DNA of 64,000 nt, taken from the NCBI RefSeq assembly GCF_004135645.1, contig NZ_SDPW01000001.1, positions 124,001 through 188,000 of the forward strand. The letters run 5' to 3'. Position 1 is the stretch's first letter, and every line of letters begins with the position of its first letter. Position numbers and translations under genes: made by a program. The notes beneath the pieces were generated by a model. That model made no database searches, was not told the DNA's origin, and was given only the letters and a program-made list of their open reading frames with translations. Positions 33,764 through 62,475 of the stretch are shown in pieces. Source of the stretch: Senegalimassilia faecalis (lineage in GTDB: Bacteria; Actinomycetota; Coriobacteriia; Coriobacteriales; Eggerthellaceae).

Positions 33764-34987
33764 CTACGCTTGCGCTTTGCGAGATTTCTTCGGCTTGTAG
33801 CCCGGGCAGCGGTAGTCGTGCGGCTCGGCGGCGTCCGCAATCTCGGGCACCCATTCGTCGATGGGCAGCAGCGCTTCGGCGGCAAGCACGTCTTCAAGCT
33901 GCGCGTGCGTTTCGGGGCTGCGCGGCATGAACAGCGTGCAGCAGTCGGGCGCGTCCTGCGAGGAGATTTCGAACGTGCCGGCCTGCTGGGCCATGTCGAT
34001 GATCTCAAGCTTGTCGGTGCCGATAAGCGGGCGGAACACGGGCAGCTCGACGGCTGCGTCGGTACAGCGAATGTTGTCAAGCGTTTGCGAGGCAACCTGG
34101 CCCAGGCTTTCGCCGGTGACCAGCGCCTTCGCGCCTTCGCGCCTGGCGATTTCCTGCGCTACCTTGAACATAAGGCGGCGATACATGATGACGCGCAGCT
34201 GCGGCGGCACCTTCAGCGATATTTCACGCTGGTAGTCGCCGAACGGCACCACGTACACGCGTGCAATGCAACCGGTCTTCTCCAGCACGTGCGCGATATC
34301 GTCGACCAGGTACTCGCTGGTGTCGGACGTTTGCGGACGGCCCGAAAAATGGACGCCGATGCACACGGCGCCGCGGCGCGCCATGCGCCACGTGGCCACC
34401 GGGGAGTCGATACCGCTTGAAAGCAGGCAGGCCACCTTGCCCGAGCTTCCCACCGGCAAGCCGCCCACGCCGCGTACGCTGCGCGCATATACGTATGCAG
34501 CGTTCTGCACAACCTCGACGCCAACAACGACGTCGGGGTTTTTCATCTGCACCTTTTTCTCGGGATGCGCCTCGCACAGCGCCGCGCCGATGATGCGGTT
34601 CATGTCCATGGAACCGACTTCGAAATCCGTATGGTTGCGGCGCGCCTGCACCTTGAAGCTGGTGAAGTCGTCCACGTCGGCCATGGCGGCCAGCGCCGCT
34701 TCTTCCATCTGCTTTAAATCGCGCTCGCACTTATAGCCCGACGAGACGCGCGCCACGCCCGGAACCTTGCGGATGAACTCGGCGCAGCGCTTTTCCGTTT
34801 CCCAATCGGTACCTTCGCGCAAGAACACGCACAGGCGACCCGAGATACGGTGGATGGTGACGATGTCGAAATCGGTGAGCAGCGCCTCAAGGTTTTTCAG
34901 CAGGCGCATCTCAAACGTGGAGCGGTTGTGGCCCTTCAGTCCGATCTCGTGATAATGCACCAGGCAGATACGCTGGAATTCAGTCAT
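33764..34987 (-). CDS. thiI: tRNA 4-thiouridine synthase ThiI
   Basis: 407 aa. It has an N-terminal ferredoxin-like/THUMP region (HYHEIGLKGHNRSTFE, FKVQARRNHTDF) and a PP-loop ATPase with SSGIDSPVATWRMARRG. The later motif GESLGQVASQTLDNI is typical. There is no C-terminal rhodanese domain, as in Bacillus-type ThiI, which receives sulfur directly from a dedicated desulfurase. The ATG at 34987 has GAAGGACC upstream. The longer open frame runs back through the structured element and is rejected. Confidence 0.93.
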   Translation of the reverse strand: MTEFQRICLVHYHEIGLKGHNRSTFEMRLLKNLEALLTDFDIVTIHRISGRLCVFLREGTDWETEKRCAEFIRKVPGVARVSSGYKCERDLKQMEEAALAAMADVDDFTSFKVQARRNHTDFEVGSMDMNRIIGAALCEAHPEKKVQMKNPDVVVGVEVVQNAAYVYARSVRGVGGLPVGSSGKVACLLSSGIDSPVATWRMARRGAVCIGVHFSGRPQTSDTSEYLVDDIAHVLEKTGCIARVYVVPFGDYQREISLKVPPQLRVIMYRRLMFKVAQEIARREGAKALVTGESLGQVASQTLDNIRCTDAAVELPVFRPLIGTDKLEIIDMAQQAGTFEISSQDAPDCCTLFMPRSPETHAQLEDVLAAEALLPIDEWVPEIADAAEPHDYRCPGYKPKKSRKAQA

Positions 34988-35074
34988 GACAGGTCCTTCA
35001 GGTGAAGCGGCATGCAGGGGCGCGGTTTCGCGAAAAGCACGGCGGCGCGTGCTGCCAAGGGATAAGCGTTCACA

Positions 35075-35186
35075 GCAAAAGCCCCCTGACACGTTGCCTC
35101 TGAACTGGAAGTTCACCGTGCGCTTTCACGCACGTGCTTCCAGGCAGAACAAGGTGCCAGAGGGCTTGACGGCGGGAACCCCGCCG
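35075..35186 (-). ncRNA. Long structured RNA element between rpoZ and thiI
   Basis: On the minus strand a 7-bp hairpin (70-76/80-86 of block 35100, loop GTT) is followed by an 85-nt imperfect hairpin from 35165 to 35081. The hairpin has about 35 base pairs: a 12-pair basal stem, two central blocks and an apical CGTGCG-type stem with loop TGAAAG. TTTTGC comes directly after it. It could be the terminator of mihF-gmk-rpoZ, a leader of thiI or an independent small RNA. No Rfam family is recognised by eye; it lacks SRP, 6S or riboswitch hallmarks that I know. Confidence 0.45.
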
Positions 35187-35206
35187 CAATGATTACCAGA
35201 CGCGGA

Positions 35207-35467
35207 CTAGTGGTTCTGCGCGTCGATGGTTTCGGGGTCGTAGGACACGTCGCCACGAGCGATTTCGGCAAACGCCATGGACAGCGGCTTCTTGTCGGCA
35301 GCCTTGGCGATTTCCACGGCCGTTTGCAGCTGGATGGCGCGGTCGCGCTGGCCACGCATCATGTCGTTGATGTCGTGGGCGCGCTTCGACGCCAAAGCGC
35401 ACAGCAAGAAGCGGTCGTTGTCCGTCTCGTTGAGAAGGTCGGTGATCCTGGGTTCAATGATGCTCAT
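35207..35467 (-). CDS. rpoZ: RNA polymerase omega subunit
   Basis: 86 aa. It begins MSIIEPRITDLLNETDNDRF, with CALASKRAHDINDMMRGQRD containing the omega signature KRAxxIN. Then it has KPLSMAFAEIARGDVSY. It aids beta' folding and RNA polymerase assembly. The ATG at 35467 was chosen over a 26-codon longer frame that runs into gmk. It is 7 nt downstream of the gmk stop in the mihF-gmk-rpoZ operon. Confidence 0.93.
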   Translation of the reverse strand: MSIIEPRITDLLNETDNDRFLLCALASKRAHDINDMMRGQRDRAIQLQTAVEIAKAADKKPLSMAFAEIARGDVSYDPETIDAQNH

Positions 35468-35474
35468 ACGGTTT

Positions 35475-36047
35475 CTAACCTCGCGTTTTCTCGGCTTGTT
35501 CGTTGACGTAGGAAACGAGGGCGGCGCACGCCTCGTCCAAATCATCGTTCACAAGCTGTATATCATACTCCATTTTCCGAGAAAGCTCCACCTTTGCAGC
35601 GGAAAGACGCTGCTCGATGACCTCCTCGGTTTCGGTTCCGCGGCCGCGCAGGCGCGCTTCAAGCACTTCCATGGAAGGCGGCTCGATGAAAATGAGGTGC
35701 GCCTCGGGCACCTTCTCGCGGATTTGGAATGCGCCCTGCACATCGATTTCCAGGATGACCTGCTGGCCAGCCGCCATGTGCTCGGCTACGCTTGCGCGCG
35801 GCGTACCATAGCGGTTCGAGCTGTACTCGGCCCACTCAAGCAAGCCGTCGGTATCGATGAGCTGCTGGAATTGCTCGGGCGTTTTGAACTGGTAGTGAAC
35901 GCCGTCGATCTCGCCTTTGCGCGGCGCGCGCGTGGTTGCCGAAACGGACACCCACGCATCGGGAACCGCCTGCACAAGTCGGGCCACCAAGGTGCCTTTA
36001 CCAGCACCCGATGGCCCGGAGATGACGAACAGGTTGCCGCGACGCAC
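35475..36047 (-). CDS. gmk: Guanylate kinase
   Basis: 190 aa. It has the P-loop SGPSGAGKGTL, the GMP-binding region VSATTRAPRKGEIDGVHY and the segment ILEIDVQGAFQIRE. It phosphorylates GMP to GDP. It starts 3 nt after mihF. The order mihF-gmk-rpoZ is characteristic of actinobacteria. Confidence 0.96.
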   Translation of the reverse strand: MRRGNLFVISGPSGAGKGTLVARLVQAVPDAWVSVSATTRAPRKGEIDGVHYQFKTPEQFQQLIDTDGLLEWAEYSSNRYGTPRASVAEHMAAGQQVILEIDVQGAFQIREKVPEAHLIFIEPPSMEVLEARLRGRGTETEEVIEQRLSAAKVELSRKMEYDIQLVNDDLDEACAALVSYVNEQAEKTRG

Positions 36048-46216: not shown

Positions 46217-46276
46217 AAACCTGGCAAACGACCTGTCCCCTTGCCAGGTTTCTGACAAGGGGACAGGTCGTTTGCC
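46217..46276. repeat. REP-like palindromic element with two alternative stems
   Basis: A perfect 21-bp inverted repeat (46223-46243 and 46256-46276) contains GACCTGTCCCC/GGGGACAGGTC. A second 11-bp repeat (46217-46227 and 46241-46251, AACCTGGCAA/TTGCCAGGTT) overlaps it, so the stems are mutually exclusive. GGGGACAGGTC-type palindromes resemble REP elements mobilised by TnpA-REP transposases. No transposase is present here. Confidence 0.6.
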
Positions 46277-46277
46277 A

Positions 46278-62378: not shown

Positions 62379-62475
62379 TGGCGGAGATGCGTGCGAATCG
62401 AACACACCCGAGACGTTCTGCGCGCCTCACAACGGCTTTGAAGGCCGCGGGAACCACCAGGCCCCACCCATCTCC
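62379..62475 (-). tRNA. selC: tRNA-Sec (UCA anticodon)
   Basis: About 97 nt including an encoded CCA (62381-62379). Acceptor GGAGATG pairs with CATCTCC. The anticodon stem CGGC closes loop CTTCAAA, giving anticodon UCA. A long variable arm GAGGCG / CGTCTC and a T loop TTCGATT follow. The long variable arm and UCA anticodon identify tRNA-Sec. It converges on selAB. Confidence 0.95.

Follow-up and report, generated by a model that had tools for sequence, protein, structure and literature searches.

The hairpin between rpoZ and thiI of Senegalimassilia faecalis, probably a decayed copy of a dispersed gene-end element of the Coriobacteriales

The long hairpin in the spacer between rpoZ and thiI of Senegalimassilia faecalis is, judging from its sequence and gene context, very probably the decayed member of a family of gene-end elements that are dispersed in genomes of the Coriobacteriales. 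The reading as a whole, in which this element would also act in the manner of REP or BIME sequences, is held with modest confidence. Throughout the family, copies occupy a characteristic position behind genes, keep their pairing, are dispersed over the genome, turn over, and show a bias as to the strand on which they fold. In the window, i.e., the whole stretch of 64,000 nucleotides of contig NZ_SDPW01000001.1 that was analysed, the locus comprises the following features:

35079..35167, minus strand: long hairpin, corresponding to the rod of the element in decayed form, 89 nt with 38 pairs, −54.9 kcal/mol
35169..35187, minus strand: small GC-rich hairpin of the predicted fold, at the position of hp1, the hairpin that flanks most family copies
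35071..35078, minus strand: 3′ flank TTGCTGTG, a degenerate version of the conserved YCTCGCTGAC end according to the alignments with covariance model R1 and with locus L041 (see below)
35207..35467, minus strand: rpoZ, the upstream gene (NCBIfam NF001589)
33764..34987, minus strand: thiI, the downstream gene (NCBIfam TIGR00342), whose closest orthologues align from the same ATG
35475..36047, minus strand: gmk, co-directional with rpoZ (NCBIfam TIGR03263)

All hairpin features are read on the minus strand, which is the strand of gmk, rpoZ and thiI, and the small hairpin begins 19 nt past the rpoZ stop codon. The first-pass annotation had described a hairpin of about 35 bp in 85 nt followed by TTTTGC, located between rpoZ and thiI and preceded by a second small hairpin. 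This description holds: NCBIfam confirms both genes, the stem reaches the extent given above, and the fold places the small hairpin at 35187-35169, while TTTTGC forms the 3′ end of the long hairpin, with its first two T being paired. Folding of the minus strand of 35060-35200 (141 nt) yields −72.2 kcal/mol, compared with −47.9 ± 4.1 kcal/mol for 200 dinucleotide shuffles, none of which was as stable (z −5.92), and the plus strand of the same segment yields −62.7 kcal/mol (z −5.26). A 450-codon ORF that starts with GTG inside the hairpin, as an upstream extension of thiI, was taken as an artefact, the orthologues supporting the ATG. In a scan of the window with Rfam 15 no family reached its gathering score at the hairpin and only tRNA genes matched; for the element in general, no credible Rfam match was obtained at 20 loci searched at the gathering threshold and four loci searched at E ≤ 5. 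A tRNA-Sec gene is present at 62379-62475 on the minus strand (ARAGORN; Rfam RF01852), so that the S. faecalis genome likely makes selenoproteins. With the window hairpin as query, blastn returned no second copy better than E 0.5 from its own genome and no convincing match from 59 relatives. Because the stems vary, blastn did not show further copies, and a sequence pattern and a covariance model were needed instead.

A ThiI search found thiI in 131 of the 138 family genomes, and the rpoZ-thiI spacer could be read at 110 of 111 loci. In the first type of spacer the two genes overlap or nearly touch, in the second roughly 60-130 nt contain a plain hairpin, and in the third roughly 165-440 nt mostly contain a very stable double hairpin. 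In spacers of the third type, CGACGCTGCGAA and TTCTCGCTGAC form a shared frame that encloses a rod of varying sequence but constant pairing. At loci L045 and L046 the same site has just a short GC hairpin followed by CTTTGCTGTG. The 612-nt spacer of L145 (genome G136) holds a giant repeat-rich hairpin of another kind (−346.7 kcal/mol). At L111, L112 and L156, by eye, an inverted repeat centred on TTAATTAA seemingly takes the place of hp1; for L111 and L112, the 5′ arm of this repeat is the end of rpoZ including the stop codon, as if the repeat had been made by local inverted duplication.

Behind the stop codon come, in this order, the small hairpin hp1, the motif GACGCTGYGR, a rod of ~97 nt with covarying pairs, the motif YCTCGCTGAC, and a tail block of ~16 nt that occurs in several versions. 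Together they make up an element of ~165 nt that is predicted to fold into two hairpins. In most copies hp1 starts a few nucleotides after the stop codon, and its arms are variable but complementary. Outside the limits from hp1 to tail no column rises above the conservation threshold in 193 copies. Covariation in relatives, which the first-pass annotation had proposed to look for, is strong. In alignment A1 (31 copies), 24 of 29 consensus pairs are changed on both sides, with few single-sided changes. For alignment A2 (39 copies) the covariation score is 0.575 as against 0.182 ± 0.009 for shuffled alignments (0 of 500), and the share of paired cells, 86.6%, falls to at most 46% when the partner is slid by 1-3 columns; the number of pairs changed on both sides (32 of 41; shuffled 28.1, 7 of 500) is less distinctive than the covariation score. 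Covariance model R1 was built from A2, which includes no copy from the window’s genome. Several copies are more elaborate: the rods of L256, L246 (4570-4745) and L260 are enlarged to ~175 nt by extra hairpin sequence near the terminal loop, and tandem copies occur in L311 (5591-5881), L336 (1894-2188) and L337 (6516-6787), where the second begins 157-176 nt after the first. In the window’s genome, a second short motif resembling GGGACAAAGGGACTGTCCC was seen by eye downstream of the copies at L240, L245, L246 and L255.

R1 matches at E < 1e-3 in 24 of 100 rpoZ-thiI loci searched, 20 of which sat in the seed of the model and four of which (L055, L062, L083 and L090) did not. Within the genus, genome G002 carries a clear copy between rpoZ and thiI (L041, a seed member) in the same orientation as the window copy, and the two share the arms AAGCCCTCTGGCACCTTG and CAGGGGGCTT. 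The comparison of the window arms with L041 scores 63, a value that none of 5000 random window stretches attained (best 57). With filters off, R1 scores the window copy (35176-35071) at 18.3 bits (E 0.027), the best match of the 64-kb window; a nearly perfect short hairpin at 46222-46277, which lacks the ends of the family, comes second with 16 bits. Under default filters R1 finds no match at E ≤ 1 for the window locus (L039) or for L040 from the third species of the genus, and the window copy is absent from the R1 matches obtained when its own genome was searched. Both of its ends are degenerate relative to the canonical GACGCTGYGR and YCTCGCTGAC. The hairpin is called a decayed copy because of this low score and these degenerate ends, and its membership in the family is therefore based on synteny and arm similarity.

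The pattern GACGCTGCGAN{80,110}TCTCGCTGA occurs in 53 of the 138 family genomes, with up to 31 copies, and its reversed control had zero matches among the genomes listed. At E ≤ 1, R1 finds 29 matches in the window’s genome (G000), 7 in G001 and 30 in G002. At E ≤ 1e-4 there are 27 in G000, and one further copy (L282, 64.5 bits) was found among 20 spaced 15-kb samples; the genome holds at least 28 copies that are better than the window copy. Sixteen chosen genomes, mostly single-contig, contain 0 to 48 copies at E ≤ 1e-4, with at least one in 14 of them; all genome counts by R1 are lower bounds, 150 candidates having been scored per genome. In a scan with one genome per species (at least 120 stretches), all but two of the 80 matches listed belong, by their titles, to the Coriobacteriia, namely to Eggerthellaceae genera, other MAGs labelled Coriobacteriaceae, Collinsella, and one Atopobiaceae MAG. 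R1 supports the four Collinsella loci and the Atopobiaceae locus with 54.8-81 bits; the two exceptions, in Azonexaceae (L320) and PVC (L358), were rejected, as they have no R1 match at E ≤ 1. In a class-wide sample, GACGCTGYGRN{85,110}YCTCGCTGAC was found in 84 of 396 genomes, of which 60 belong to the window’s family and 24 to two other families of the order, as judged from titles, while the 83 genomes from outside the order had no match; a single genome (G259) matched the reversed control, and at least one of the pattern matches (G325) is unlike the element. In a phylum-wide sample 10 of 396 genomes match, eight from the same family and two elsewhere with single, chance-like matches. The element was thus seen only in Coriobacteriales in the samples searched. 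A phage origin was rejected, since three pattern matches on viral contigs score 12.6-15.8 bits with R1, which is near chance. The element is apparently undescribed: among papers on repeats, palindromes, and structured or small RNAs of Coriobacteriia, Eggerthella, Gordonibacter and Adlercreutzia, no title or opening of an abstract indicated such elements.

The placement of copies was counted for the 182 that have enough flank. A sense stop codon of a frame of at least 100 codons lies within 60 nt upstream of 146 of these, compared with 269 of 1820 random positions, and the stop-to-rod distance is 31-38 nt in 108 of the 146 and 18 nt, inside hp1, in another 14. Using a crude gene caller for the neighbour context, the next called gene was co-oriented for 37 of 45 copies vs. 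131 of 201 genes in the spaced samples of G000. Counts of antisense ORFs and next starts (75, 139 and 147 of 182) were set aside, because frames are often open in GC-rich DNA and there was no control. The upstream genes are housekeeping genes; for the window’s genome and G108 we take them, from their translations, to include greA, frr, efp, aspS, purB, purC, lysA and hom, and furthermore metG, fabF, ilvC, hisB, pdxS, ffh, rplS, rplX and rpoD. For 13 of 25 upstream genes of the window’s genome an orthologue elsewhere is directly followed by a copy, in at least 11 cases in another genus; since the targets were fetched for holding copies, this measures sharing and not frequency. Among the matches listed, copies are co-oriented with replication in 26 of 28 cases in G000, 26 of 26 in G108, 17 of 21 in G105, 20 of 22 in both G096 and G102, and 20 of 26 in G106, with the terminus assumed opposite dnaA and lengths beyond G000 and G108 rounded or assumed; for genes in the 20 G000 samples the count is 136 of 213. 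This co-orientation is given little weight, and housekeeping genes are leading-strand biased anyway.

Individual sites differ between close relatives. In both G001 and G002, pdxS runs into pdxT with the overlap TAATG; in the window’s genome a copy splits the two genes. A gene pair that is presumably ccmB-ccmC is also occupied by a copy in the window’s genome; its spacer measures 15 nt in G002 and apparently holds the tail block alone in G001. The hisB-hisH spacer of G001 contains a rod that is shortened but still has two recognisable ends, and among 14 sites compared those occupied in G002 too include efp, frr and ffh. L240 and L242, both from the window’s genome, are alike in the rod except at two positions but have distinct hp1 and flank sequences. 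The core of L062 reads, by eye, as the reverse complement of the L063 core with the ends keeping their direction, and R1 scores L062 on both strands (66.3 and 56.5 bits). Judging from the two near-identical rods, from the flipped core in L062 and from the losses within the genus, rods appear to be copied, flipped and deleted as DNA. Since some sites are common to genera and others differ between congeners, the family is old, and its turnover continues.

When read in the gene direction, the stems of 184 copies, not counting their conserved internal loops, contain 188 A⋅C and 67 G⋅U mismatches, and the ratio points the same way in all four subsets (44:19, 13:2, 10:2 and 121:44). A previous count on 31 copies (29 G⋅U, 25 A⋅C) had indicated strand-neutral pairing and was replaced by that on 184. 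The opposite strand forms the more stable RNA in 176 of the 184 copies, the commonest terminal loop, CCGAAG (59 copies), becomes CUUCGG on it, and the conserved mismatches at positions 11-12 and 18-19 become tandem U⋅G/G⋅U and G⋅A, motifs that are stabilising. The p-values of this bias overstate its certainty because the copies are related, but its direction repeats across the sets. The strand on which pairing is preserved would therefore seem to be the one that lies opposite the neighbouring genes, an observation that argues against a simple role as a hairpin of the sense mRNA. It is somewhat doubtful, yet conceivable, that the folded opposite strand is itself the working form, either as a family of antisense RNAs ending at the stops of core genes or as a site in single-stranded DNA that some enzyme would mobilise and direct to the position just behind stop codons; to our knowledge, neither has a described counterpart.

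The element resembles REP, BIME and REPIN sequences in being dispersed and palindromic, in having many copies per genome mostly behind coding regions, and in diverging between species. REPs of the GTAG and CGTC super-families, units of 20-40 bp with the respective tag at one end, are according to PMC3733652 found predominantly behind coding regions and plausibly transcribed; Eggerthella, Slackia, Gordonibacter, Cryptobacterium and Actinobacteria have zero mentions in that paper. The copies studied here are likewise dispersed and mostly located downstream of coding regions. By contrast, the element is four to eight times longer (~165 nt), has two hairpins in fixed order instead of a GTAG/CGTC-tagged unit of 20-40 bp, and forms a rod with conserved internal loops in a fixed sense orientation, mostly a few nucleotides after the stop. 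A match to PF01797 (RAYT-type) is present in 71 of the 138 family genomes, including the copy-bearing G001, G002, G063, G097, G104, G106, G107 and G108, of which G106 and G108 have 45-47 copies, and absent from G000, G096, G102 and G105, the latter three of which hold 41-48 copies. A RAYT transposase as the mover was rejected on account of its absence from G000 and some copy-rich genomes. The ERIC/IRU elements of enterobacteria are ~127-bp imperfect palindromes in transcribed intergenic DNA; their copies are alike in sequence, whereas the stems of the present element differ freely, with pairing and end motifs kept.

That the window hairpin is the intrinsic terminator of the gmk-rpoZ transcript, and the whole family a set of long terminators, is unlikely. 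Like an intrinsic terminator, the window hairpin is GC-rich and ends in UUUU, copies sit at gene ends, and the short GC hairpin with CTTTGCTGTG in L045 and L046 takes the same site as if the two were interchangeable. However, 156 of 182 copies have no TTTT near the 3′ end of the rod, and since it is found in just 26 of 182 the explanation fails for the family. The frequent co-orientation of the next gene is also unlike that of terminators at operon ends, the internal loops and flanks are conserved beyond what a terminator needs, and the mismatch bias favours the opposite strand. Of the repeat-derived terminator that the first-pass annotation had considered, the repeat origin is thus borne out by ~30 related copies in the same genome, whereas the terminator does not extend to the family.

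A gene for a structured antisense RNA that converges on the upstream gene and has hp1 at its 3′ end would account for the greater stability of the opposite strand, its CUUCGG loop and the excess of A⋅C mismatches, as C(UUCG)G loops, tandem U⋅G/G⋅U and tandem G⋅A pairs are typical of RNA. G⋅T and G⋅A mismatches would favour the same strand as DNA, however, conservation in 193 copies ends ~16 nt past the rod with no promoter-like block upstream, and the flipped core of L062 persists, all of which makes such a gene distinctly unlikely. The new ncRNA suggested in the first-pass annotation is conceivable, the pairing being that of a folded strand. A site for recombination or transposition that acts as a single DNA strand in folded form, similar to integron attC sites or IS200/IS605 ends, is improbable as well, despite Watson-Crick covariation with few intermediates, the bottom-strand bias, the fixed orientation behind genes, the co-orientation with replication, and the gain and loss within the genus together with the flipped core of L062 relative to L063. 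The element shares with attC sites variable stems, conserved ends, a location behind genes in one orientation and a folded bottom strand. Integron attC sites carry R boxes of the form RYYYAAC/GTTRRRY, which by eye the ends of the element consensus do not have; the upstream genes are housekeeping genes and not cassettes, no cassette arrays were noticed, PF01797 transposases are absent from G000, and the comparison of occupied and empty sites shows spacer differences alone. A cis-acting thiI leader, raised in the first-pass annotation, can practically be dismissed, for although the element stands before thiI here and at 24 of the 100 loci searched, copies elsewhere stand before other genes and follow many (greA, frr, efp, purC, aspS, hisB and others), and several thiI genes abut or overlap rpoZ, leaving no spacer.

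For the favoured explanation, a dispersed gene-end element, a REP-like mode of action is proposed tentatively, by analogy. Copies would spread or convert within a genome via a folded single strand, as in REP/BIME sequences, and would persist where they have landed just behind a stop codon. Because of the stem mismatches, the bottom DNA strand in its folded form may take part in the copying or retention of the element, an antisense RNA being less likely; the folded strand under selection would be mainly the one opposite to the gene. Once in place, the element could form a boundary in the intercistronic or 3′ region that limits 3′-to-5′ decay or read-through, and could absorb supercoiling. It is from the likeness to REPs that we infer an effect of the element on expression. 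REPs close to stop codons reportedly affect translation as well. That sites are shared between genera, and that the rod has internal motifs, points to a function more specific than mere selfish spreading.

Little is known about gene regulation in the Eggerthellaceae, gut bacteria that metabolise drugs and plant compounds. The element is a candidate for a general gene-end device of ~165 nt that stands behind up to dozens of core genes and spans several families of one order, its pairing being kept while its sequence changes. The strand bias and the near-fixed distance to the stop codon provide testable claims on the origin and upkeep of dispersed palindromes, and R1 lets annotators recognise many unexplained intergenic hairpins.
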